Positions 2,149-31,783 of a DNA stretch of 35,586 bases are shown here, piece after piece (the first letter of the stretch is position 1; every line of letters starts with the position of its first letter). The DNA comes from Candidatus Aquicultor sp. (GTDB lineage: Bacteria > Actinomycetota > Aquicultoria > Aquicultorales > Aquicultoraceae): NCBI GenBank assembly GCA_030682615.1, contig JAUXNY010000128.1:1-35586 (forward strand), read 5' to 3'. Position numbers and translations under genes: made by a program. Under the pieces are notes generated by a model, which was not told the origin of the DNA, searched no databases, and was given only the letters and a program-made list of their open reading frames with translations.

Positions 2149-2218
2149 GCCGAACGCTTGAGCTCACCTGCATTTTGGAGCGTCAGCGGAAAATGTCAGG
2201 TGCAATGATTTGTTATGC
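2149..2218 (-). other. attC cassette recombination site (70 bp)
   Basis: Read on the minus strand, it starts with the R''-type box GCATAAC (2212-2218) and ends with the R'-type box GTTCGGC (2149-2155). Between them is a near-perfect hairpin: CACCTG pairs with CAGGTG, then CATTTT pairs with AAAATG, with one unpaired extrahelical base between the two stems as in functional attC sites. The stop codon of the upstream gene (2219-2221) abuts the site, the standard arrangement in an integron cassette. Confidence 0.85.
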
Positions 2219-2650
2219 TTATACATGTTTAATTTTTATATCATAATTCTTTTGTGCAAGGTATTCAGCCAATAGCCTTCTATGGCACTTGTCTGCTGTT
2301 GGTTCAGAACACAATAAAACAGAATTCTTAAAAATATCCCAGTCTATTTTTTCAATTATATTTCTTTTTATAAGAATTTCTTTATACAGAATCTCGTACT
2401 CTTGCCATGAAATAGACTTATCTTTATATCCGTTTAATAATTCTTTAGATGGTGCAAAGTCAGGTTTATACAAATATTTAATATCATGAATTTTTAAGAA
2501 ATATGGTAAATGCCTAACATTAGTAAATCCTGCCAGTTGAGATTTATTATTAAGCCTAATGTCAATCAAGCGAATGATATTATTTGTTTTTAGGGTTACA
2601 AAAAATTCTTCTGCACTTTTTTGAGAAAACCCAATCGTATACAATGTCAT
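2219..2650 (-). CDS. DUF488 family protein (second copy, 143 aa)
   Basis: Small protein of the DUF488 family. The N-terminus has the TIGFS variant of the family's TIGHS motif. Near residues 114-124 is the conserved CSE...KCHR motif, whose two Cys and His are thought to form a metal or nucleotide-related site. At 143 residues it is shorter than its neighbour. Its ATG overlaps the stop of the upstream DUF488 gene by 4 bases (ATGA), so the two are translationally coupled. The stop touches the attC site. Base composition is much richer in A+T than the surrounding genes, which suggests transfer. The family has no established reaction; a nucleic-acid or defence role is inferred from its partners. 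Confidence 0.88.
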   Translation of the reverse strand: MTLYTIGFSQKSAEEFFVTLKTNNIIRLIDIRLNNKSQLAGFTNVRHLPYFLKIHDIKYLYKPDFAPSKELLNGYKDKSISWQEYEILYKEILIKRNIIEKIDWDIFKNSVLLCSEPTADKCHRRLLAEYLAQKNYDIKIKHV

Positions 2651-3297
2651 CTATGTTCCTTTTCTGTTTCCGTAGGGTTGTATGCAACTAACTTGTTAAG
2701 CGCAAAATAGAGTTTGTTTTCATCTATTTCATCAAAATCAAACATAGCGTTTTGTATCAGATGAAAATTTTTAATTTTGCTAATATCCATTGATATCTTG
2801 TGGTACTCCTTATAATAATCAAGCAATTTACTTTCTAATAATTTATGGCTAAAAACGTCTTCCCCTATTATATGATTAACCATATACCCTCTTTGATGTA
2901 AAAAATGAGAAACCAAAGAAAACCTATGACATTCTATTGGGTTTTTTTCTGAACACATCAATGCAATTTTATAGCCTTTTTTTATTCCAGTTTCAATTCT
3001 AGTAATGCCTTCTTGAAATCGTTTTGTATTTATCACCTTTGAAAAATTTACTTTGCCATCCTCAAATAATAATTCTTTATCTTTATATCTTGCCCCCAAA
3101 TATTTCCCCATCGGGATATAGTTGACATTGTTCTTTTTAAGAACAGTTGCTAATTTATCTTTGTTGAATTGACTGACAAAACGACTATAAGGCACACTAC
3201 GTACATCTACGATTGTATCGATCTGGTTGGTCGCCAAAAGACCAATAAAATAACCTAATGAATCAGTTGAGTGCCCTATCGTAAATATTTTATTCAT
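2647..3297 (-). CDS. DUF488 family protein (first copy, 216 aa)
   Basis: Full DUF488 protein with TIGHS at residues 6-10, a DVR..P.SR block at 31-39 and the CSEKNPIECHR motif at 115-125. It sits between the dual-OB gene, whose stop lies 15 bases upstream, and the shorter DUF488 gene, which it overlaps by 4 bases. The three genes therefore form one operon in one cassette. The C-terminal 70 residues extend past the usual domain and look helical. Two divergent DUF488 proteins side by side suggest a heteromeric complex. Family identity is firm; function is not known from the sequence. Confidence 0.9.
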   Translation of the reverse strand: MNKIFTIGHSTDSLGYFIGLLATNQIDTIVDVRSVPYSRFVSQFNKDKLATVLKKNNVNYIPMGKYLGARYKDKELLFEDGKVNFSKVINTKRFQEGITRIETGIKKGYKIALMCSEKNPIECHRFSLVSHFLHQRGYMVNHIIGEDVFSHKLLESKLLDYYKEYHKISMDISKIKNFHLIQNAMFDFDEIDENKLYFALNKLVAYNPTETEKEHR

Positions 3298-3312
3298 ATA
3301 ATTTCTCTTTTA

Positions 3313-3981
3313 CTAATCTTCTATTAAAGACGCCAAAAATTTATAACAATATCCATTATATGGTAACCCAACACTTACACACATGTATATATTTTCAATA
3401 GACAGAGTAAAACAACCGTCATTCCCAGACAAATATTTTGATTCAACCACAGGATCTGTCACCGGTAAAAGGTATTCTGTATTATTATATGTAAATTGAG
3501 CACGAATCTTACGCTTTGCGTCGTCAAACTCTTCACCTTCTATCCGAACAATAATTTTCAGAACTTGAGGTTTAATAAAATATACGGATTCACTATACTC
3601 AGCATGCATTCCTTCAGGCATTCTATCATTTGTTCCTTGATAGCTTGAAAACCCAGTACCCCATAAATCTTCAGGTGAATCCAACAAACTTTCTAGTCTA
3701 TCCGCATATTGTCCTATTTTTGTCCAGTAATATCTATCATCTATTAAATAGTTTTCTTTTTGGTGTTGTGTGGGTTTATGGTCTTTTACTGGAACGCTTA
3801 TAATATCAAGAAGTTTTGGCATTTCGCCATTTTCATAACGTCGTTCTTCTTCTGATATTTCTTCACTTTCACGATTACTGACAGGTCGTATCCATTTATT
3901 TGATTCGATTATTTTTCCAGCAATACACCTACCAGATATTTTCCTAGAATTGGCAAGGCATACAATCTTTATTGGATCCAT
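3313..3981 (-). CDS. Dual OB-fold domain protein, DUF488 partner (222 aa)
   Basis: Resembles the dual OB domain proteins that I recall being found beside DUF488 genes in predicted prokaryotic conflict systems. The start at 3981 (MDPIKIVCLANS) is chosen because AGGAG lies 8 bases upstream. A longer TTG-started frame would run back into the recombination box at 4000-4006. The sequence alternates short beta-rich blocks with no transmembrane segment, signal peptide or catalytic motif that I can see, fitting a nucleic-acid-binding or sensor role. It is the first gene of the cassette operon. The family name rests on recall of overall pattern and gene neighbourhood, so it is less certain than the DUF488 calls. 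Confidence 0.65.
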   Translation of the reverse strand: MDPIKIVCLANSRKISGRCIAGKIIESNKWIRPVSNRESEEISEEERRYENGEMPKLLDIISVPVKDHKPTQHQKENYLIDDRYYWTKIGQYADRLESLLDSPEDLWGTGFSSYQGTNDRMPEGMHAEYSESVYFIKPQVLKIIVRIEGEEFDDAKRKIRAQFTYNNTEYLLPVTDPVVESKYLSGNDGCFTLSIENIYMCVSVGLPYNGYCYKFLASLIED

Positions 3982-3999: not shown

Positions 4000-4242
4000 G
4001 CATAACAATGTTTACACTGATCCATATAATACTCCAGAATTGCTGCTTGTGCCCGTATAAGACGCCCCTAGGAACGCATCCATTGTCGTTATAACCAATG
4101 CTAAATGCACCTATTTTGATTAAACGCTATTTTATCATTGTGTCTTATGCAGATCGGTACATAATCCTCTCCAAAGCTAACTTATTTAATCTTACAACAT
4201 ATCGACTGGGCTGCGACCCCTAGCAGGTCTACGATTGAGGAC
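4000..4242 (-). repeat. 243-bp leader repeat, copy 1
   Basis: Non-coding block found again at 9558-9800. By hand the copies align without gaps over 243 positions with about 32 differences (roughly 87% identity), and the differences show no codon periodicity. On the minus strand it ends in GTTATGC (4000-4006), the same core as attC R' boxes, right before a cassette gene. Inverted arms at 4017-4029 and 4145-4157 could form a long stem. It may be an attI-like leader or an unusual attC. Confidence 0.75.
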
Positions 4243-4451
4243 ATGCGTATAAATTGTATAAGTTAACCTCTCCCCTGACACCTGACCCAAATCCCCTGTT
4301 GCATTCTTCGTGAGCAGAAACAGTTATTAGATTTGACGGTCTTTATAAAAATAAGTTCTTTGGAGGAACATGATCTTTTGAATCAGCTCCAGATGAACCA
4401 CAAATATAACAAATTTTCGCCTTTAACACTCCCTATAAATAAAGGCAAGAA
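4243..4451. other. Intergenic stretch, nothing recognised
   Basis: AT-rich sequence between the leader repeat and the end of the XRE-M78 gene. I see no open frame with a start signal, no attC boxes and no strong terminator. Confidence 0.4.
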
Positions 4452-7340: not shown

Positions 7341-7462
7341 AGTCCTCTTCCGTGCCTGGCAAGCTCTCATATTGATTTATTTGCTGTCCTCCATAAGACA
7401 ATTGAATTGAGCGGCTCTGTTCAGCTTGCCCGTCGCAATGAATTATTAAACGTCACTAAACA

Positions 7463-7612
7463 CTATGGTTCAATAACACCAAGGATTTCCCTGAAACTGT
7501 TTAACCCCGCCTCAAGGTTTTCGATTATTTCTAGCGCCAGTTCGTCGGGTTCGGGTAGATTGTCCAGGGCGGCCAAGCTCTTGTCTTTGAGCCAGAAAAC
7601 GCTGAGGTCGCG
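7463..7612 (-). pseudogene. hsdM 3'-end fragment
   Basis: About 50 codons in the minus frame end at TAG 7463-7465. They match the C-terminus of the intact HsdM encoded at 9832-11316: both contain FWLKDKSLA, DNLPEPDELALEIIENLEAG and LNSFREILG, with roughly six differences over 47 residues. Nothing upstream of this piece is present: the next bases (7611-7617) are the core of an attC site. It is a remnant of a diverged second hsd locus, or the product of recombination that placed the cassette array between two hsdM ends. Confidence 0.85.
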
Positions 7613-7671
7613 CTAACGGTCGGGTTGAGCGGCGGCGTATAAGCAACGTCTGCGGCAGCACATTGTTAGGC
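7611..7671 (-). other. attC cassette recombination site (61 bp)
   Basis: On the minus strand it begins with GCCTAAC (7665-7671) and ends with GTTAGCG (7611-7617). It lies 6 bases after the stop of hicA. The internal stem is imperfect but GC-rich in the expected places. It closes the hicBA cassette and joins the hsdM fragment directly. Confidence 0.7.
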
Positions 7672-7677
7672 AATATT

Positions 7678-7893
7678 TCATAAGTCATCCGGTGTAAGCC
7701 CGGTACTCTTAGCGATGCGTGCCAGCATGCGAGGACCAATTTCTTCTCTATCATGAAACGCGAAAGTAAAATCTGACCACCCGGAACGGGACAGGACACG
7801 GTGTGATGTACCAGATTGACGCTTGATCGTCCAGCCGAGCCGTAACAAAGCAGCCAGCACCAATCTTGCTTTGGTTGACGGCCATTGACTCAT
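7678..7893 (-). CDS. hicA: HicA-type toxin (cassette-borne)
   Basis: 71-residue protein of the HicA mRNA-interferase fold. RQSGTSHRVLSR carries the catalytic His of the family, which acts on translated mRNA in the cytoplasm. It overlaps the upstream hicB by 4 bases (antitoxin first), the order that keeps antitoxin in excess. The attC site follows the stop by 6 bases, so hicBA is one cassette. Toxin-antitoxin pairs are common in cassette arrays, where they discourage loss of the array. It is only distantly similar to the second HicA at 17023-17253. Confidence 0.85.
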   Translation of the reverse strand: MSQWPSTKARLVLAALLRLGWTIKRQSGTSHRVLSRSGWSDFTFAFHDREEIGPRMLARIAKSTGLTPDDL

Positions 7894-8090
7894 GCTGGCA
7901 CTGCGAAGACGCCGCGGAGTTCTGGAATTTCTTCTCCGTGTTCGAGCCGATCAGCCAACACGCGCAAGGCCAAAACCTTGACTTTGGAAACTGCTTCCTT
8001 TTTGCTCTGTCCATACGCCATAACGCCAGGCAAATCAGGCACTTCGGCTATCCACCGGCCATCTTCTTCGCGTTCAATTTCGATATTCAT
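7890..8090 (-). CDS. hicB: HicB-type antitoxin (cassette-borne)
   Basis: 66-residue HicB antitoxin, consisting only of the partial RNase H-like fold: EREEDGRWIAEVPDLPGVMAYG is followed by a helix with ADRLEHGE. It binds and neutralises the HicA encoded next. A strong ribosome-binding site (GGAGG, 8 bases before ATG) supports the start. There is no DNA-binding domain at the C-terminus, so repression by this protein alone is unlikely. It opens its cassette, starting 54 bases after the previous attC. Confidence 0.87.
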   Translation of the reverse strand: MNIEIEREEDGRWIAEVPDLPGVMAYGQSKKEAVSKVKVLALRVLADRLEHGEEIPELRGVFAVPA

Positions 8091-8144: not shown

Positions 8145-8226
8145 GCCTAACGCTTGAGTTCAGCGGCTTTTTAGGGGCGGCGCTTTTTGCCGCGTCTAAA
8201 AAGTCCGCTGGATTGATTTGTTATGC
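8145..8226 (-). other. attC cassette recombination site (82 bp)
   Basis: The clearest attC here. On the minus strand it runs from GCATAAC (8220-8226) to GTTAGGC (8145-8151). CAGCGG pairs with CCGCTG, then an extrahelical A, then CTTTTTAG pairs with CTAAAAAG, then GCGGC pairs with GCCGC around a short loop. The 3' box context CTCAAGCGTTAGGC is that of classic integron cassettes. Confidence 0.93.
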
Positions 8227-8231
8227 AAGAG

Positions 8232-8600
8232 CTATTTTAGATTAAACAAAAGACCGTCATTTTCAAAAGCTTCTACCGTTACTGGGTATGAATGTATTTT
8301 CCGATAGTTTATTTCCAATTTGACCTCAGTGATTTGATCCGCATAAGCCCTTAGGAATTTTCCCAGTCTTTCTCGCACGCGACTATCGACAATTGCTACT
8401 GTTTCTAAATCATATCTTTGCTCTACGATTAAGCAGTCGGCGTCATCAGCTTGATTCGAATCTACAGGTTTAAGCTTTGTGCGAACAACGGCTTTTCCGC
8501 TTTGCAACTCAACTTCTGTTTCAATGGCATTGACGCAATCTGTTCCGAGCCTGTGATTCAGCTCGAGAGTTGTTGTTCCTTTTCGAAGACTCCTAATCAT
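8232..8600 (-). CDS. Cassette gene of unknown function (122 aa)
   Basis: Soluble 122-residue protein that I do not recognise. It has no signal peptide, membrane helix or metal motif. The pattern is alternating beta strands with a helical segment (about 76-90, rich in Arg) in the second half. The start at 8600 has AAAGGG 8 bases upstream. The stop (8232) lies 5 bases before a strong attC, and a degenerate attC lies upstream. It therefore occupies a whole single-gene cassette, where orphan genes are typical. Confidence 0.75.
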   Translation of the reverse strand: MIRSLRKGTTTLELNHRLGTDCVNAIETEVELQSGKAVVRTKLKPVDSNQADDADCLIVEQRYDLETVAIVDSRVRERLGKFLRAYADQITEVKLEINYRKIHSYPVTVEAFENDGLLFNLK

Positions 8601-8618: not shown

Positions 8619-8665
8619 GCATAACGCCTGAAATCAGCGGTTTCATTTCTTGCTCTTTTTTAGGC
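8619..8665 (-). other. Degenerate attC site (47 bp)
   Basis: The minus-strand 3' half is good: CCGCTGATTTCAGGC then GTTATGC (8619-8625), closely matching the neighbouring attC. The 5' half is poor: GCCTAAA (8659-8665) has lost the final C, and the matching inner arm is missing. The stop codon of the exonuclease gene lies inside it. It is probably a partly deleted attC. Confidence 0.6.
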
Positions 8666-9538
8666 GACAACTGCCGTCTCCAATAGAATTAATTCTTTAA
8701 AATCGCTTTCTCTAATGATTCGAATCTGACATCCACTAGCGATAAGCTCCTCGGCTTTTCTGTGCTTAGAGCTCTTTTCGTGGCCTGCAAGACGCTTAAT
8801 ATCTTGATCTCCTACAACGAGTAGAGTCGTTTTTTTGGTAACGCCGGAACTGACTTGACAGCCTATTTGGGATGCCATATCGGCTGCTTTAGACCGTGGT
8901 ATCTCTAGAGCACCCGTAAAAACTACAACCTCGCCATACAAAGGCCCTTCTGGATTTCCGTCGCGCCTGATTTCTTCACGGGAGCTTGATGTTGCGGGGC
9001 TAATCGGTTGGTTTACGCGTTTTAGCCAGCTTTCTACGTCAAGGCCACTCTGCTTTACGGCTGCGAGAAAGATGTGTCCTGCCGCTTTTGCATCTTCTAA
9101 TGCATCATGGTGTTTGAAATCGTACCCTAGCGCTTCGCAAATATTGTGAAGACCGTAACCGGCATAAGCAAATTTTTCCCATGTGCGTCGAGCAACACGA
9201 GCTGAATCCAACCAAGTACAATCTGGGTGTCGAATTAGGTATTTATCTGATGCTTGGCGAATGGCAACGCGGTCAAAATGAGTATGACACACGACTACAC
9301 GGTTATCCAAAAAGCCGTATAACTGATCAGTGATTTTAGGAAGGACTGGGGCTCCCGCTACCATAGACTCGTCGATCCCATGTATTGAAACATTGATTCC
9401 GTCGAAGTAGTCTTCAGGATCGATATAGGTCTTCCATTCTTCGGCAAGCAATCCATCCCGATATCTGGCCAACCCAATTTGACATATTGATGCCATATCA
9501 GCATTGGCTGTTTCGACGTCAATCGCCACGAACTCCAT
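8660..9538 (-). CDS. DEDDh 3'-5' exonuclease with C-terminal BRCT domain
   Basis: Protein of 292 residues starting at 9538, where AGAGG precedes ATG. Residues 1-165 are a DnaQ-like exonuclease: FVAIDVET gives the D and E of motif I (7, 9), HTHFDR gives motif II (Asp 89), and HHDALED gives His 144 and Asp 149. After a linker, residues 200-290 form a BRCT domain (VVVFTGALE, KTTLLVVGD), a phosphopeptide or DNA-end binding fold. The design resembles epsilon-like repair exonucleases that trim single-stranded or damaged ends. It is the first cassette after the second leader repeat and is not part of a replication operon, so it may serve cassette or defence DNA processing. Confidence 0.93.
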   Translation of the reverse strand: MEFVAIDVETANADMASICQIGLARYRDGLLAEEWKTYIDPEDYFDGINVSIHGIDESMVAGAPVLPKITDQLYGFLDNRVVVCHTHFDRVAIRQASDKYLIRHPDCTWLDSARVARRTWEKFAYAGYGLHNICEALGYDFKHHDALEDAKAAGHIFLAAVKQSGLDVESWLKRVNQPISPATSSSREEIRRDGNPEGPLYGEVVVFTGALEIPRSKAADMASQIGCQVSSGVTKKTTLLVVGDQDIKRLAGHEKSSKHRKAEELIASGCQIRIIRESDFKELILLETAVVA

Positions 9539-9557: not shown

Positions 9558-9800
9558 GCATAACAATGTTTATACTGATCCGTATAATACTCCAAAATTG
9601 CCGCTTGTGCCCACATAAGACGCCTCTAGAGACGCATCACTTGTCGCTATAATCAGTGCTAAATGCACCTGTTTTGACTAAACGCTATTTTATCATGGTG
9701 TCTTATACGGATCGGCAGATAAGCCTCGCCAACGCTACCTTATTTAAGCTTACAACATATCGACTGGGCTGCGAACCCCAGCAGATCCGCGATTGCGGAC
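9558..9800 (-). repeat. 243-bp leader repeat, copy 2
   Basis: Second copy of the block at 4000-4242. The minus-strand 3' end is again GTTATGC (9558-9564), 19 bases before the first cassette gene. The inverted arms at 9575-9587 and 9703-9715 pair perfectly here apart from one G-T. A small inner palindrome around 9620-9635 changes on both sides relative to copy 1, which suggests that folding matters. The other end begins about 30 bases after the hsdM stop. Confidence 0.75.
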
Positions 9801-9831
9801 GTTGGTGTAAAGCATTTAAGACCACCAAATA

Positions 9832-11316
9832 CTATGATTCAACCGCACCAAGAATTTCCCGGAAGCTGTTTAGTCCTGCCTCGAGGTTTTCGATTATTTC
9901 TAGCGCCAGCTCGTCGGGTTCGGGTAGATTGTCGAGGTCGGCTAGGCTCTTGTCTTTGAGCCAGAAGATATCGAGGCTGGTTTTGTCGCGGGCGATTATT
10001 TGTTCGTAGGTGAATTTGCGCCAGCGTCCTTCCGGGTTGTCTTGCTCGTTCCACAGTGGGTTGCGCTCATGGCGATTGAGCGGGTTGTAGCAGGCGATAA
10101 ATTCCTGTAAATCCTCATAGCGCAGCGGTTTCTTTTTTAGGGTGTGGTGAACGTTGGTGCGGTAGTCGTAGTACCAGACTTCTTTTGTCCACGGCTCCTT
10201 GCTGGCTGCGCGGTTATCGAAGAACAACACATTTGCCTTGACGCCATTGGCGTAAAAGACGCCGGTCGGCAGGCGCAGTATTGTGTGCAACTCAGTGGTT
10301 TCGAGCAGCTTCTTTCGCACCGTCTCTCCTGCTCCGCCTTCAAACAAAACATTGTCCGGCACGACGACGGCAGCGCGGCCGGTGGTTTTTAGCATGGTGC
10401 GGATGTGTTGCACAAAGTTGAGTTGTTTGTTGGAGGTGGTCGCCCAGAAATCCTGTCGGTTGTAGGTCAGGTCGTCTTTTTCCTGTTCGCCTTCCTCATT
10501 GGTAAAGCTCATCGCGCTTTTCTTGCCGAATGGCGGATTCGCCAGCACATAGTCGAAGCGCTTGCCGCTATCCGCCACCAGGGCGTCGTTAGGCGACACC
10601 ATGCTGTCCCCGTCGATTTCACCGATGTTGTGCAAAAACATATTCATCAAGCACAGACGGCGCGTCCCCGCGACGATTTCATTGCCGCTAAAAGTCTCGT
10701 GCTTGAGAAACGCTTTCTGGTCCTTGTCCAGCTGCTGCTGCGGCGCCACCAGAAAATCGTAAGCGGCCAAAAAGAATCCGCCCGTGCCGCAGGCCGGATC
10801 GGCAATGGTCTTGTTTGGCTCCGGGCGCACGCACTCCACCATTGCCTTGATCAGCGCGCGTGGAGTAAAGTATTGCCCGGCACCGGACTTGGTGTCTTCC
10901 GCATTTTTTTCGAGCAAGCCTTCGTAGATATCGCCCTTAATGTCGGCGCCCATCGTCACCCACTGTGTTTCGTTGACCATATCAATCAGGCGATACAGCT
11001 TGGCCGGGTCTTGAATCTTGTTTTGCGCCTTGGTGAAAATCTGTCCCAGCATCCCCGGCTTGTTGCCCAGTTCGCGCAAGAGCGTCACGTAATGCACCTC
11101 CAGCTCCGCGCCCCGCTTGGGCTTAAGACTTTGCCAATTGTATTCGTCGGGTATGTCCACCTTGCGATTATAAGGCGGCTGGCTATATTCGTCGGCCATT
11201 TTCAGGAAGATAAGATAGGTTAGTTGCTCCAGATAATCGCCATAGCTCACGCCGTCGTCGCGCAACGTGGTGCAGAAACTCCAGACTTTTGAAACGATAG
11301 ATGCGGTTGCGTTCAT
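9832..11316 (-). CDS. hsdM: Type I restriction-modification DNA methyltransferase (M subunit)
   Basis: 494-residue N6-adenine methyltransferase subunit. A helical HsdM N-terminal domain (1-130) precedes the catalytic fold. The AdoMet motif is ADPACGTGG at 172-180 and the catalytic motif IV NPPF at 260-263. With HsdS it methylates the host target, and with HsdR it cuts unmethylated DNA. The start at 11316 has GAGG upstream. It lies 3 bases after the RhuM-Fic stop, so all belong to one operon, in the unusual order R-S-RhuM-M. A diverged copy of its last 50 codons is at 7463-7612. Confidence 0.97.
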   Translation of the reverse strand: MNATASIVSKVWSFCTTLRDDGVSYGDYLEQLTYLIFLKMADEYSQPPYNRKVDIPDEYNWQSLKPKRGAELEVHYVTLLRELGNKPGMLGQIFTKAQNKIQDPAKLYRLIDMVNETQWVTMGADIKGDIYEGLLEKNAEDTKSGAGQYFTPRALIKAMVECVRPEPNKTIADPACGTGGFFLAAYDFLVAPQQQLDKDQKAFLKHETFSGNEIVAGTRRLCLMNMFLHNIGEIDGDSMVSPNDALVADSGKRFDYVLANPPFGKKSAMSFTNEEGEQEKDDLTYNRQDFWATTSNKQLNFVQHIRTMLKTTGRAAVVVPDNVLFEGGAGETVRKKLLETTELHTILRLPTGVFYANGVKANVLFFDNRAASKEPWTKEVWYYDYRTNVHHTLKKKPLRYEDLQEFIACYNPLNRHERNPLWNEQDNPEGRWRKFTYEQIIARDKTSLDIFWLKDKSLADLDNLPEPDELALEIIENLEAGLNSFREILGAVES

Positions 11317-11319
11317 GTA

Positions 11320-12321
11320 TTAACCTCGAATCAGATTCATTATCAGATGAATCATCAGTTGTTTTTGTGCCGGGTCGCTTTGCGCCACCAGCAGCGCAAT
11401 TGCCGCCAGCGCGTTGTCGTTGATTTTCAGTTCGCCGTCGGTTTTCAGATGGTGCTGGTTGCGTTGCAAAAACCAGATGAACAGGAACGCCCCGATACGC
11501 TTGTTGCCATCCGAAAACGGATGATTCTTGATGACGAAATACAACAGATGCGCGCCCTGCTCCTCGATGCTCGGATAAAGAAACTCCCCGCCAAACGACT
11601 GTACGATATTGCCGAGAATACCCGCAAAACTATCGTCTTTTTGATTGCCAAATAGCTCCGACGCTTCGTTTTTCGCCATCAAATCCGCCTTGAGTGCTGT
11701 AATGCCTGCTTCGGCTTCCGCAGGTTGGATTTCATAGCGTATGGTGGTCGCAAAATCCCCCAACGGCAGCCGCTCGCTGTCGAACTGATTGAGCAACACA
11801 AAGGTACGGGCATAACCGGTAATCACGCTCACCAGTCCGCGCGCCTCGGGCAAGCTAGCCTGCTCGATCAGGTTTTGCTGGAATAGAGTCAAGGTGCGCT
11901 CAAGCTGTTTGATATGCTCCTGCTGTACCTGCAAGCGTTGCCTGTTCAGCGCGTAGCCTTGCACCAGATAATCTTTCAGGACACGGTTGGCCCAGATGCG
12001 GAATTGCGTACCCTGTTTGGATTTCACGCGGTAACCGACCGAAATAATCACGTCGAGGTTGTAGTGCGCAGTATCATACTCCTTGCCATCGGCCGCAGTT
12101 ATCCGGAAATTCCGGATAACTGAAGACTCATCCAGTTCGCCTTCCTTGAAAACATTACGGATATGCTCGCTGACCGTTCGAATATTCTTTCCGAACAACT
12201 CAGCCATCTGCTTTTGCGATAGCCATACGGTTTCGCCTTGTAGCCTGACCTCGGTGGCTATCGAGCCATCGGCGGATTGGTAAATGACGATGGGGGCAGC
12301 GGTATTTTCTTGAGTAGTCAT
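11320..12321 (-). CDS. RhuM-family protein with Fic/DOC domain
   Basis: 333 residues. The N-terminal RhuM domain (about 10-125) includes VWLSQKQMAELFGK and SVIRNFRITAADGKEY, a helix-turn-helix-like region of the family. A central helical linker leads to a Fic domain with HPFSDGNKR at 267-275. That is the complete HPFx(D/E)GNxR active site, which transfers AMP or another nucleotide part to proteins. It is embedded in the hsd operon between hsdS and hsdM. RhuM-Fic genes are found repeatedly in type I loci, perhaps as a backup toxin or modulator. The intact motif suggests an active enzyme; the target is unknown. Confidence 0.93.
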   Translation of the reverse strand: MTTQENTAAPIVIYQSADGSIATEVRLQGETVWLSQKQMAELFGKNIRTVSEHIRNVFKEGELDESSVIRNFRITAADGKEYDTAHYNLDVIISVGYRVKSKQGTQFRIWANRVLKDYLVQGYALNRQRLQVQQEHIKQLERTLTLFQQNLIEQASLPEARGLVSVITGYARTFVLLNQFDSERLPLGDFATTIRYEIQPAEAEAGITALKADLMAKNEASELFGNQKDDSFAGILGNIVQSFGGEFLYPSIEEQGAHLLYFVIKNHPFSDGNKRIGAFLFIWFLQRNQHHLKTDGELKINDNALAAIALLVAQSDPAQKQLMIHLIMNLIRG

Positions 12322-12355
12322 GCCTAAACCTCTCTTGTTTTTCGAGACATCGCCG

Positions 12356-12382
12356 CAGTTGTTGCATTTTTTGCAACAACTG
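12356..12382 (-). repeat. Hairpin between hsdS and the RhuM-Fic gene
   Basis: CAGTTGTTGC and GCAACAACTG form a perfect 10-base stem with a 7-base A-rich loop on the transcript. No T run follows, so it is unlikely to be a simple terminator. It could tune mRNA stability or separate hsdS from the downstream genes. Confidence 0.5.
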
Positions 12383-12436
12383 GCTGAGCCGACCTTCCGG
12401 CAACTATAAGGAAATTCCGAATAATTGGAATTGGCA

Positions 12437-13978
12437 TCATGCTTTTCTCCCGGTCAGCTTACGCGACTTGGCGGTAACTGTTCCGTTCTTTGCAACGGTT
12501 GCCTTCTCCGCCTTGATGCGTGCCAGCAACGCCGAGGCGGGTTCGTCATGCGGGTCTTGCGGCACCAGTTGGCCGGAGAAAGCTTTTTTCAGGATGGACT
12601 GGCGCAGGGCTTCGGCTTGTTGCAGGGCAGTGGTGATGGTTTGGTCGAGTTGGTCACATTCAGACAAACGTGATTCAGTCTCCAGCAAGATTTGTTGCTG
12701 CTCGCGTTGGCTAAAAATGGCTACCGGCAAATTTGCCAACACAGTTAAGTTAATTGATGCCAAGTTAGTAGTTTGCTTGGCGTGTCGAAAAAAATATTTC
12801 TTTGCGCTTTTTGTCTGTGAGTATAGAGAAAGAATTTCCGAACTAATGACACCGCCATAGATTCTCGCCCTGAAAATGTGGTTTTGGTGAATGCACGAAT
12901 CAATCTGATTTCGCCACACTGCACCCCTTCCAAGCTTATCTTTGTCTCCACCTTCAGTGTATAGAACATCGCCGAATTCCAGCCGATATTTGTCTTTATC
13001 TTGCGTTTCAACTTCAATCTGCTTGATTTCCGTTAAATCAAGGTATCCATCCTGAACATTTGCAACACGCAGATATGGCAGAGATAGCTTTTCTTTGCCC
13101 TCAAGATTTTTCCCTTTCGTAACGCCACCAATCAAATCCGCAATATTTCCAAGTTTCTCCCACCCCCACCCGTCTGGCAGTTCGGGTAATTCGGCTAGTT
13201 CTTCGGTGGTCAGAGGTGGTAGGGTTTTTGGGGTTTTTGGTTTGCGGCCTTGTTTGCCGAATGTTTCCCAGTCGGTCAGTTGTTGTTGGTAGTGTTGCGC
13301 GCGTTCGGTTTGGATGCGCTTTAGTAAGGCTTCGGCGCTTTCTAGTTTGTCCTGGTTTTCTGCACGCCACTGCGCAGTGAGTTTGCCCTCGAAGGCGTGT
13401 TTCAGCAAGGCTTGGCGATATACCTTGAGCTGCGCATGGGCGGTTTTCAGGTTTTCAATGCCCTTATCCAGCTCGGAAAACAGCTCCTCTATTTTTGCAA
13501 CTATGCGGTGTTGTTCTGGAAGTGGCGGGAGTCCGAACTCCAGTTCCTCAACAAACTGTTTGTTGATTGCAGAAAATGTAGAGCCCGTGCCTTCTTTTGA
13601 AATGTCTGTTTCAATGCCGCGAAGTAGGTATAACACAAACATTGGCGAAATACCGCCAACTGGGTGAATCGCTGCAAGTCCCCGGCCGATACAGCACTTT
13701 TCTTTCGCTAGATTTGTCGGTCCAACTGGTGCCCGAACTGATAACAACGTTGCTCCAGGCAACGCAATTTTATTAGGTGCATTACAGTATTTTGCAACGG
13801 TTGGATAAATTGCCCCAAACTCAGCTTTACCCTGAAAGAACGGGATTCCATCCCCACCTCTGTTGTAGGTATCAGAAGTCGGTGACTGCCCCATAACTAT
13901 GTCGGTAAAGTCAGGTAAACAGCACCTGCTCCATCCTTGTGGTAGCGAATCATTCGTTATTCTTGAAAAAAGCATCAC
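12437..13978 (-). CDS. hsdS: Type I restriction-modification specificity subunit (S)
   Basis: 513-residue DNA-recognition subunit. Two target recognition domains (about 5-150 and 265-420) are each followed by a long conserved helix. The central helix begins LPPLPEQHRIVAKIEEL and the C-terminal one QREQQQILLETESRLSE. These helices set the spacing between the two half-sites and bind HsdM. The start overlaps the hsdR stop by 4 bases. It appears full-length and intact. The recognition sequence cannot be read from the protein. Confidence 0.96.
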   Translation of the reverse strand: MMLFSRITNDSLPQGWSRCCLPDFTDIVMGQSPTSDTYNRGGDGIPFFQGKAEFGAIYPTVAKYCNAPNKIALPGATLLSVRAPVGPTNLAKEKCCIGRGLAAIHPVGGISPMFVLYLLRGIETDISKEGTGSTFSAINKQFVEELEFGLPPLPEQHRIVAKIEELFSELDKGIENLKTAHAQLKVYRQALLKHAFEGKLTAQWRAENQDKLESAEALLKRIQTERAQHYQQQLTDWETFGKQGRKPKTPKTLPPLTTEELAELPELPDGWGWEKLGNIADLIGGVTKGKNLEGKEKLSLPYLRVANVQDGYLDLTEIKQIEVETQDKDKYRLEFGDVLYTEGGDKDKLGRGAVWRNQIDSCIHQNHIFRARIYGGVISSEILSLYSQTKSAKKYFFRHAKQTTNLASINLTVLANLPVAIFSQREQQQILLETESRLSECDQLDQTITTALQQAEALRQSILKKAFSGQLVPQDPHDEPASALLARIKAEKATVAKNGTVTAKSRKLTGRKA

Positions 13979-16761
13979 ACCACCAACACCTCATTCAACT
14001 CTTCCAGCAGCTCATCCATCCGAGCGCCGAACAGTTGATACATCTTGCCCAGGCCGCCTTGTCCATCGAAGGGCGCCATTTCCAGGTCGTCGTGGTCGAT
14101 GTGGAATGAGTTGGCGATGTGGTCGCGGATCATGCGTAGCCAGTTCATTTGTTCTTCGTTGAATTTCTCGCTGCCGCCGGAGTGGTGTTTCATCACCCAG
14201 TTCTGGAAGTTGCGGCGCACAGTGTCGTCGAAGGTGGAGAGCTTGTCGTCCATGCCGCAAACGCGGCGGATAAGTGCGACCAGCGCGGTCAATTCGCTGA
14301 TGGGCTGCGCTCCTTTGTAGTCGTCCAACTGGCGATAGGCTTGCCACACGCGCAGTGGGGCTAGCTTGGGTTTGTCCGCTTTAAGCTTGTCCATCACTTC
14401 TCGTATCATCTCGAAGCTGAGTTCGCGCCGCCGATACGGCTGGCTGAAGAAAATGGTGAGCGCTTCGATGTTATCCTGATTGCTTCTCAGGTAATCGGCA
14501 AATTCGTCGGACAGGGCTTGCGCGTTGTTGGCCGCGTCCTTGTCCCACTCGGCGCGCAGCACGCTGTCGATATTGTCATGGTCGATGGTTTGTTCCTTGT
14601 CGCGGCGGATGGTGTCGATGAGTTCGACGAGTCCGCCATTTAGAAGACGAGCAGCGTCGCCGACCAATTGCTCTTGCGCCAACTCGCGGTTTGCGTCGCC
14701 GGGGTCGTTCTCTATGGGTTGTCCCGCCAATTCTAAGGCTTTAGCTTCGATGTTGTCGGCATCGATTGCGTCGAACAGCTTGCCGATAATCGCGGTGAGT
14801 TCCACGCCTCCGGCAGCCTCGCTTATTCGCCGCTGTTCATCTGTATTGAGTTGCTTGTTGAGCCGCGCCAAGCGTCCGGCAAGTGAGCTGACGGTGTCTC
14901 CATCGCTCGCGCCCATCATCACACTCATCGCCAAATCCTTAAGCGGTATGCCGGGTTTGGTGATGAGCGGTTGGCTGGCGGTTTTCAGCGATTTAGTAAC
15001 GCCGATGGCATCGATAATCACATAGTGGGTCTTAGCGCTCACGGCGGACGGTGTGACTTTCTGCAAATCGTCCATATCGAGCGTGCGCGTGCCGCGGCCT
15101 TTCATCTGTTCGAAGTAGTTGCGACTCTTTACGTCGCGCATGAACAGCAGGCATTCCAGCGGTTTTACATCGGTGCCGGTGGCAATCATATCCACAGTGA
15201 CGGCGATGCGCGGATAATATTCGTTGCGAAACTGCTGCAAAACGGACTTGGGGTCTTCCTCGGTCTTGTAGGTGAGTTTTTTGCAGAACGCATTGCCTTC
15301 GCCAAACTCCTCGCGCACGGTCTGGATGATGTCGTCGGCGTGGCTGTCGGTCTTGGCAAAGATTAGGGTTTTCGGGACTTCTCTGCGACCAGGGAAAATC
15401 TCCGGCAACTTATCGCGAAAGGTGCGAATTACGGTGCGAATCTGGTCGGGATTGACGATATTTTGGTCGAGCTGCCGGGCGGAGTAGACTTCGTCTTCGT
15501 CCTGGAGTTCCCAGCGTTTTTTGCGGGTGAGCTTCTCACGGCGCTCGACCTGCTGGTGCGCTTTTATATGCGCGCCTTGCGTGGTAATCTCGGTTTCGAT
15601 TAGATAGATTTCGTTACCCACATTGACGCCATCGGCCACTGCTTTTTCGTGACTATAATCGCTGACCACGTTCTTTTTGAAAAAACCGTAGGTACGATTG
15701 TCCGGTGTGGCAGTGAGACCAATAAGGCTGGCATCGAAATAATCTATAACCTGTTGCCACAGGTTGTAGATGGAGCGGTGGCATTCGTCGATGAATATGA
15801 AATCGAAAAATTCCGGCGGGACCTTTTCGCTATAGACTACAGGCTTCGGTTCTTTGGCTTGTGTTAGTTCGGCTGGATTTATCTCCTCGGCGGCCTCATC
15901 GAGTTCTCTGTCTTTAAGAATGGAGTAGAGCCGCTGGATGGTGCTGATGCAAACCTGGCTGTCTTTAGCGACGAACGAGGACTTAAGCCGCTGCACGTTA
16001 TATAGCTCGGTGAACTTGCGGTTATCGTCGATGGGCACATAGGACATCATTTCCTGCTCGGCTTGTTCGCCCAGGTTTCTGGTATCCACCAAAAACAGGA
16101 TGCGCTTGGCCTGAGCGTGTTTGAGCAGGCGATAAATTGAAGTAATCGCGGTGTAAGTTTTGCCCGCGCCGGTCGCCATTTGAATCAAGGCGCGTGGGCG
16201 ATCTGCCTTGAAAGAGGCTTCCAGATTGTTGATGGCAATTTCCTGACAATCGCGCAGGCGCAAATCCTTTGCGGGGAGATGATTCGGGTTGAGTATTGGA
16301 ATATGCTGCAAACATTCGCGCAGGCTGTCGCCTTGCGCGAGCCATTCCTTAAGTGTTTCAGGCCGGTGAAAACTGAAGACTTCGCGCGAACGCGGTTTGG
16401 GATCGCGGGCATCGGTGAAGCGGGTAAGGATGCCGGTGCTCTCGTAGAGGAACGGCAACGGCTCTTTGTTGTTAACCCACTTCAGCTGGGCACCGGCATA
16501 GCCTTCGGTTTGTGTTTCATGAACGGTAAGTCGCTGCCCCTCTTCTTCACGCTTGGCCTCGATCACACCCACCGCTTTTTTATCCACGAACAGCACATAG
16601 TCCGCCGGGCCGACATCGGTCTGGTATTCACGCACAGCCTGACCCAAGCCGACATTGAGGTCAATCTTCGTGTTGTGCTGAACCGCCCACCCTGCCTGCC
16701 TTAACAGCGCATCGATATTGTCTCGGGCTTTCTGTTCGGGGTTTTGGTTGTGTGTTGTCAA
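13975..16761 (-). CDS. hsdR: Type I restriction enzyme, R (motor/nuclease) subunit
   Basis: Large restriction subunit. The start is taken as TTG 16761 (MTTHNQNPEQKARDNID), preceded by AAGGA, though the frame is open to a GTG at 16794. The N-terminal HSDR_N nuclease shows the D...EAK signature (ADYVLFVDKKAVGVIEAK). The SF2 helicase has ATGAGKT near residue 200 and DECH near 327, and the C-terminal domain is of the EcoEI type. It translocates DNA using ATP and cleaves when two complexes collide. It is the first gene of the hsdR-hsdS-rhuM/fic-hsdM operon. No disabling mutation is visible. Confidence 0.96.
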   Translation of the reverse strand: MTTHNQNPEQKARDNIDALLRQAGWAVQHNTKIDLNVGLGQAVREYQTDVGPADYVLFVDKKAVGVIEAKREEEGQRLTVHETQTEGYAGAQLKWVNNKEPLPFLYESTGILTRFTDARDPKPRSREVFSFHRPETLKEWLAQGDSLRECLQHIPILNPNHLPAKDLRLRDCQEIAINNLEASFKADRPRALIQMATGAGKTYTAITSIYRLLKHAQAKRILFLVDTRNLGEQAEQEMMSYVPIDDNRKFTELYNVQRLKSSFVAKDSQVCISTIQRLYSILKDRELDEAAEEINPAELTQAKEPKPVVYSEKVPPEFFDFIFIDECHRSIYNLWQQVIDYFDASLIGLTATPDNRTYGFFKKNVVSDYSHEKAVADGVNVGNEIYLIETEITTQGAHIKAHQQVERREKLTRKKRWELQDEDEVYSARQLDQNIVNPDQIRTVIRTFRDKLPEIFPGRREVPKTLIFAKTDSHADDIIQTVREEFGEGNAFCKKLTYKTEEDPKSVLQQFRNEYYPRIAVTVDMIATGTDVKPLECLLFMRDVKSRNYFEQMKGRGTRTLDMDDLQKVTPSAVSAKTHYVIIDAIGVTKSLKTASQPLITKPGIPLKDLAMSVMMGASDGDTVSSLAGRLARLNKQLNTDEQRRISEAAGGVELTAIIGKLFDAIDADNIEAKALELAGQPIENDPGDANRELAQEQLVGDAARLLNGGLVELIDTIRRDKEQTIDHDNIDSVLRAEWDKDAANNAQALSDEFADYLRSNQDNIEALTIFFSQPYRRRELSFEMIREVMDKLKADKPKLAPLRVWQAYRQLDDYKGAQPISELTALVALIRRVCGMDDKLSTFDDTVRRNFQNWVMKHHSGGSEKFNEEQMNWLRMIRDHIANSFHIDHDDLEMAPFDGQGGLGKMYQLFGARMDELLEELNEVLVV

Positions 16762-17022
16762 AACGCTCAAATCCTTGTAGGTATTTAGTAACACGACACA
16801 TTGTTATCAGCTACATGCTTCTCTTAAGATTCTACCGAGCGCTTACAATAAATACAAGAAAGCTGGGTTTGGTGGGTCGGCAACGTCATTTACGAAAGGC
16901 TGGCTTATAGACGCGTGGGCTTAAGCAGAAGAAATTTGAGACAAAGCAACAAGCTTGCGTGAAAGTCTTAGAATTGGAAACCTTTACAGGCCCGAAACAG
17001 GATGCAAATCTTTGAGCAGTAT

Positions 17023-23908: not shown

Positions 23909-24032
23909 TTTGACCCCCTTTGATTGTTGAGCGGCTGCTGAAAACAAGAACTCACCAACCACACAAAAAAGCCCGGCCATTATCGACCAAGGCTTACCGC
24001 CCACTCCGGCCTCGGAAGTGGTCTCCCTTGCA

Positions 24033-24225
24033 TGTCCCAGGCAGGTCTCCTGGCTTCCGGATCTTCGCTTGCCACGCCTTCCCGGCCTTTGCGGATTTAA
24101 CCCCGCTCTTGCCAGTGACATCTATGGCTTGCTCCCCGATTACAGTGACGGGCTCGCGCTGGACTTTCACCAGCTTCCCTATTCTACGCCGACAATTCTT
24201 GATACAGTCGCACGTCACCTGGGAC
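24033..24225 (-). promoter_or_regulatory. Cobalamin riboswitch
   Basis: The minus-strand RNA has the conserved core GGGAAGCTGGTGAAAGTCCA, then CCCGTCACTGTAA, then the closing GAAGCCAGGAGACCTGCC block. P1 is formed by CCTGGGAC (24218-24225) and GTCCCAGG (24033-24040). It lies about 125 bases upstream of cbiM and should shut off cobalt uptake when cobalamin is plentiful. Confidence 0.93.
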
Positions 24226-24399
24226 CTATATGATTTGGCGCCAGTTTACCATAGCGCAACATCGTTCGCAAATAATATCGCACCCTAATCGGCAGAGCTA
24301 GCGGGTACTGTTGGCTTCGGCACACAGTCGTTTGTTTAAGCAAAAAGGGCGCGCGTCGTTGCCGAGCAGGTTTTGGAGTTCTTCTTCAGCGATTAGGCA

Positions 24400-31412: not shown

Positions 31413-31589
31413 TTACCCTAGATTAGATACGATTGTTTGAAAGGCGCCTTGAATTTTAGTGCCGAGGATAACGACTGTTCCAATGATGACTGCTGCGATA
31501 AGCGCTACCATGATGCCGTATTCTACTGCGGTTGCACCACTCTCTTCCCGTAAGTACGTCGCCAATTTTCCGTAAAACCATGCTAACAT
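31413..31589 (-). CDS. flp: Flp-type pilin (copy 2, 58 aa)
   Basis: Small pilin encoding MLAWFYGKLATYLREESGAT, then AVEYGIMVALIAAVIIGTVV. The Flp signature is G/A-T-A-V-E-Y-G with cleavage before the hydrophobic helix. AGGAGG lies 8 bases before the ATG. It is a tandem partner of the pilin at 31607-31783 and differs mainly in the N-terminal leader and a few helix residues. It may form a mixed pilus or be a minor subunit. Confidence 0.93.
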   Translation of the reverse strand: MLAWFYGKLATYLREESGATAVEYGIMVALIAAVIIGTVVILGTKIQGAFQTIVSNLG

Positions 31590-31606: not shown

Positions 31607-31783
31607 TTATCCGAGACCGCTCACTATGGCTTGAAAAGCGGCTTGCATCTTAGACCCAAGGATTGTGACCGTTCCGATGATTACGGCTGAGATAAGTGCC
31701 ACCATGATGCCGTATTCTACAGCGGTGGCCCCGGCCTCATCGTTCGCGAACAGTTGCGCCTTCTTGATTAGTGCTTTAAACAT
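31607..31783 (-). CDS. flp: Flp-type pilin (copy 1, 58 aa)
   Basis: 58-residue pilin from ATG 31783, with GGGGAGG upstream; the frame extends further but without signals. DEAGATAVEYGIMVALISAV is the Flp cleavage and helix region. It is first in the Tad operon and probably the major subunit. The 200 bases upstream contain an inverted repeat (31847-31863) and two copies of TTATTGTGCA, likely operators. Confidence 0.94.
   Translation of the reverse strand: MFKALIKKAQLFANDEAGATAVEYGIMVALISAVIIGTVTILGSKMQAAFQAIVSGLG

Follow-up and report, generated by a model that had tools for sequence, protein, structure and literature searches.

The 35,586-nt stretch analyzed here (hereafter, the window; contig JAUXNY010000128.1 of Candidatus Aquicultor sp., assembly GCA_030682615.1) carries two arrays of gene cassettes, each with one copy of a 243-nt repeat on the minus strand, 5' of its first gene. 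An alignment search matched the copies at 4000–4242 and 9558–9800 at 87% identity across 243 nt without gaps (E 8e-81), in agreement with a preliminary description of the sequence (about 87%, no indels), and a repeat finder extended the same pair to 263 nt at 85% identity. On the minus strand both copies terminate in GTTATGC directly before the first cassette gene, as had been described, the ATG being 18–19 nt further on. Read in this direction, each copy consists of 51 nt from the 3' end of an integron integrase gene, intI (ending in NRGSAGVRSPVDML and a stop), followed by 192 nt of attI ending in the simple site AAACATtGTTATGC. From sequence comparison, we consider it highly probable that each copy is the intI tail plus the attI of a 'reverse' integron, with intI reading toward attI and the cassettes. 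This reading draws on the intI tail, the placement of attI downstream of it, the attC-bearing cassettes that follow, and class-level relatives whose intact, co-oriented integrases share this layout.

Translation of the first 51 nt from 9800 on the minus strand gives VRNRGSAGVRSPVDML and a stop, and the C-terminal end of the intact integron integrase of a class-level relative (G013) reads VLNRGPAGVRSPVDAL and a stop. In this part, the fraction of non-consensus bases over 20 copies was 0.13/0.05/0.26 at codon positions 1/2/3, the third being the most variable. Given this translation and the third-position variability, we place the end of intI at the start of the repeat, where the preliminary description had seen no codon periodicity. 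Same-strand intI remnants directly precede further repeat copies, both in the Aquicultor genome under study (G000; C30 and C41) and in relatives (G001 C85, G002 C15 and C23, G004, G009, and G010). In most copies only a 3' fragment is left, while G001 C85 has a nearly full, frameshifted intI. Three attI copies (L009 near 7852, L088 near 6917, and L079 near 3396) share a near-identical upstream junction, CCAGAGCCGGGAATAGGGGATTCTCCTAAGTCCCGGT, which lies after a gene resembling a Fic-family gene and takes the place of most of the intI tail.

Intact IntI was found in G013 (474.7 bits) and G020 (481.4 bits), both above the TIGR02249 family cut-off of 265 bits. The two genes are co-oriented and point at sites with the same motif order as the window attI, with the starts of the direct boxes spaced at 31 nt in the window, 30 nt in G013, and about 33 nt in G020. 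The cores GTTATGC, GTTAGGC, and GTTATCT (window, G013, and G020, respectively) end 170–192 nt past the stop (170–181 nt in G013 and G020 alone), and in G020 two attC sites come after attI, with cassettes continuing. An integron integrase gene thus adjoins the site as a tail in both window copies, as longer remnants elsewhere, and intact in G013 and G020.

The 192-nt attI part contains three copies of one motif, one inverted and two direct (Table 1). Its simple site, AAACATaGTTRRRY, is one base off the published minimal attI1 consensus AAACAAAGTTRRRY (PMC12901181). The core GTT is intact in 17 of the 20 aligned copies and TT in all of them, whereas the next four positions are variable, as expected where those bases derive from the inserted cassette. 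Both this column conservation and an agreement with attC R'' sequences (below) indicate a GTTRRRY core at the point where the cassettes begin.

The preliminary description had also reported long inverted arms and taken them as a sign of conserved structure. The arms are real (GATCCGTATAA / TTATACGGATC) and fold well (z -3.1 as DNA, cassette strand), with 94% of the cells of the outer helix pairing across the 20 copies, as might be seen in an RNA leader or a single-stranded DNA hairpin site with pairing arms. However, covariation was not above that of shuffles in either possible helix (score reached by 159 and 377 of 500 shuffles), each helix has only one pair with a double change, and no Rfam family matched at the repeat. 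The paired changes described for an inner palindrome did not hold up, as only 7 of the 20 copies retain the CTAG palindrome. Moreover, because the left arm matches both right arms, the arms are best seen as copies of one motif. We therefore regard a conserved structured element as very unlikely; a structured leader or hairpin was rejected for the missing covariation, and a known RNA family for the lack of an Rfam match. The inverted arms more likely represent repeated integrase-binding boxes than a conserved hairpin.

attC-bearing cassettes follow the site in both arrays, each of which has an attC that folds well (8145–8226 and 2149–2218), and at many copies in relatives. Array 1 has one strong attC (8145–8226) and two weak ones, and array 2 is a single three-gene cassette, the attC of which has an R'' (GCATAAC) fully complementary to the attI-side GTTATGC. 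At nine loci, 29 of 36 positions in the variable half on the attI side agreed with R'' of the first attC downstream, compared with 22.3 in permuted pairs (p 0.00125). The repeat itself was rejected as an attC, as the preliminary description had argued: no R'' to pair with GTTATGC is present at the opposite end, which is intI coding sequence. A promoter or regulatory leader duplicated along with the cassettes, rather than a recombination site, would likewise precede the first gene of each array, and attI regions commonly carry the cassette promoter Pc. However, a promoter scan gave results at chance (9 found versus 6.8 expected), the best on the gene strand matching only 9 of 12 positions, and such a leader accounts for neither the intI tail, nor the break in conservation at GTTRRRY, nor the attC R'' agreement, making it an extremely unlikely explanation.

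Several points weigh against the reverse-integron interpretation. No IntI above the TIGR02249 cut-off was detected in G000 or in 10 other genomes of its family (11 in total), so that G000 lacks the intact intI of a complete integron and activity in the family today is doubtful. The assemblies are fragmented, and an absent integrase could sit in an unassembled part. The permutation test covers nine loci, and the first attC was chosen with a custom fold screen, which also called three false hits on the two strands of 10 kb of control DNA. In array 1, the first cassette is followed by a weak attC whose R'' mismatches GTTATGC.

In a reverse integron of this kind, IntI would have bound boxes near the simple site, i.e., the L and R boxes AAAC-NNN-GTT along with the two direct and one inverted motif copies. 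Recombination of attI with attC between G and TT of GTTRRRY would then have inserted circular cassettes, making each array, and intI of G000 would since have been lost or cut to 3' fragments. Because of this loss or reduction, the two window attI sites are probably relics, usable only with an integrase supplied in trans. Integrons often have a decayed intI, with pseudogenes making up about a third of these genes (PMC2426708). The duplicated attI-like leader that was the first suggestion for the repeat is supported; there is no need to invoke a recombination site of a new kind, also suggested, since the position, the crossover point, and the simple site are those of a standard attI.

Table 1 Features of the two attI copies and cassette arrays in the window
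Feature	Position	Strand	Evidence
intI 3'-end remnant 1 (MLYTNVRNRGSAGVRSPVDML and stop), joined upstream to hsdM end	9750..9815	-	tblastn with intact G013 IntI, 76% identity, E 3e-4; stop 9750-9752; third-position variability
attI copy 1, 192 nt, intI stop to GTTATGC	9558..9749	-	repeat alignment, relatives comparison
Inverted motif copy, attI 1 (GATCCGTATAAGACACC)	9697..9713	-	motif comparison
Direct motif copy, attI 1 (GGCGTCTTATGTGG)	9611..9624	-	motif comparison
Direct motif copy, attI 1 (GGAGTATTATACGGATCAG), 31 nt downstream of the 9611..9624 copy	9575..9593	-	motif comparison; G013 spacing 30 nt
attI simple site, TATAAACATTG followed by TTATGC, crossover expected between G and TT	9558..9574	-	columns conserved through GTT, variable after
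Cassette gene 1, RNase_T exonuclease with BRCT domain	8660..9538	-	Pfam
Weak or degenerate attC-like site after cassette gene 1, R' = GTTATGC, R'' (GCCTAAA) imperfect	8619..8668	-	sequence and fold
Cassette gene 2, 122 aa, no Pfam family	8232..8600	-	ORF, Pfam
attC, R'' = GCATAAC, R' = GTTAGGC, strong stem with extrahelical base	8145..8226	-	fold, z -7 to -9
Cassette 3, HicB-like/HicA toxin-antitoxin pair	7678..8090	-	Pfam
Weak attC-like site, R'' = GCCTAAC complementary to preceding R' (GTTAGGC), R' = GTTAGCG	7611..7671	-	sequence and fold
intI 3'-end remnant 2 (TIYTHVLNRRPARGRSPVDML and stop)	4192..4263	-	tblastn, 74%, E 7e-4
attI copy 2, ends GTTATGC	4000..4191	-	repeat alignment, relatives comparison
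Array-2 cassette, three genes: DuOB-domain protein and two DUF488 proteins	2219..3981	-	Pfam, ORFs
attC closing array-2 cassette	2149..2218	-	fold, sequence

Directly upstream of attI copy 1 are the type I restriction-modification genes HsdM, HsdS, and HsdR, with a RhuM/Fic-domain gene among them (9832–16794). The 3' end of hsdM is duplicated (7445–7597 and 9814–9966, 86%), the extra piece starting directly after an attC-like R' (GTTAGCG), and another hsdM 3' fragment in G003 C74 (L078 near 8340) comes after an attC-like end and runs into attI. The window also contains a 119-nt direct repeat (31429–31547 and 31623–31741; 77% identical, 194 nt start to start) and a cobalamin riboswitch on the minus strand (24023–24237; 109 bits).

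G000 has five further copies of the 243-nt repeat beyond the window pair, diverged or partial, and about 20 more were found in relatives, including Candidatus Aquicultor primus (G001), Candidatus Aquicultor secundus (G008), and other metagenome-assembled genomes; the search of relatives matched 10 of the 99 genomes tabulated. The preliminary description would have taken copies spread widely away from cassettes as a simple dispersed repeat. The genome's other copies instead adjoin intI remnants and often head attC-bearing cassettes. Three attI copies (L094, L098, and L101) are in Peptococcaceae bacterium SCADC1_2_3, a record named as another phylum, reflecting either transfer or a mixed assembly. 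The repeat was unmatched in a plasmid search and in viral contigs (exact-pattern search only), and plasmid or viral spread was rejected on this basis.

The copies form pairs or triples, and all eight neighboring attI pairs within about 6 kb have the same orientation (the window, G000 C41, G002 C30, G003 C74 and C55, G008 C30, and two in G010 C19). These clusters could have arisen by tandem duplication, from separate decayed integrons, or by integrase-mediated spread. Spread, which is compatible with the attI identity, would have moved copies as cassette passengers or by integrase action at attI, leaving dispersed landing pads served in trans rather than simply decayed separate or tandemly duplicated integrons. 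The co-orientation of all eight pairs is consistent with it, as are the attI and hsdM fragment just after an attC-like end in G003 C74, and the attI1-cassette-attI1 arrangements known in class 1 integrons (PMC12901181). Homologous tandem duplication, however, likewise yields same-orientation clusters, and the differing intI lengths kept by many copies fit independent decay of duplicated integrons; we consider spread unlikely. It is also unlikely, in our estimate, that attI with a short intI tail has turned into an integrase-free landing pad, with an integrase that is repeatedly gained and lost acting in trans to load it; such pads would be present as several clustered, co-oriented copies in a genome and would extend across more than one phylum.

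Complete integrons are hardly seen in the phylum of Candidatus Aquicultor, IntegronFinder 2.0 having reported none in complete genomes of Actinobacteria, and little has been described of attI sites beyond class 1 integrons (PMC9024848). A search of a single open-access library found no paper joining integrons with Aquicultor and, among the papers listed, no account of multiple, solo, tandem, or duplicated attI, which is weak evidence. The site is of a known kind. Its novelty lies in giving Actinobacteriota an attI family and in the tandem attI clusters that lack an integrase, whose multiplicity is unusual. The gain is an alignable attI family of about 20 members with intact, co-oriented integrases of the same class (G013 and G020) to test it, and a record of integrons losing intI while retaining attI and cassettes.

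Among known systems, attI1 of class 1 integrons is alike in its simple site (AAAC-NNN-GTTRRRY), with the first cassette directly after the core, and has further integrase-binding boxes upstream. In contrast to attI1, the Aquicultor site is longer (about 190 nt), has other box sequences with one of three putative boxes inverted, and has intI oppositely oriented. Chromosomal integrons of Treponema are known with intI directed toward attI, and in these reverse-oriented integrons the 3' end of intI is likewise separated from the first cassette by attI (PMC3607928); they belong to another phylum, whereas here the decay of intI extends to the entire family examined and genomes carry several attI copies each. 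CALIN (attC clusters without integrase) share attC cassettes and the lack of an intact intI, but here a recognizable attI and intI tail persist (PMC9024848). Delta-attI-type cassettes and attI1-aacA4-attI1 also have more than one attI-derived site per array, whereas the extra sites in Aquicultor are full-length, carry intI remnants, and are up to kilobases apart (PMC12901181).
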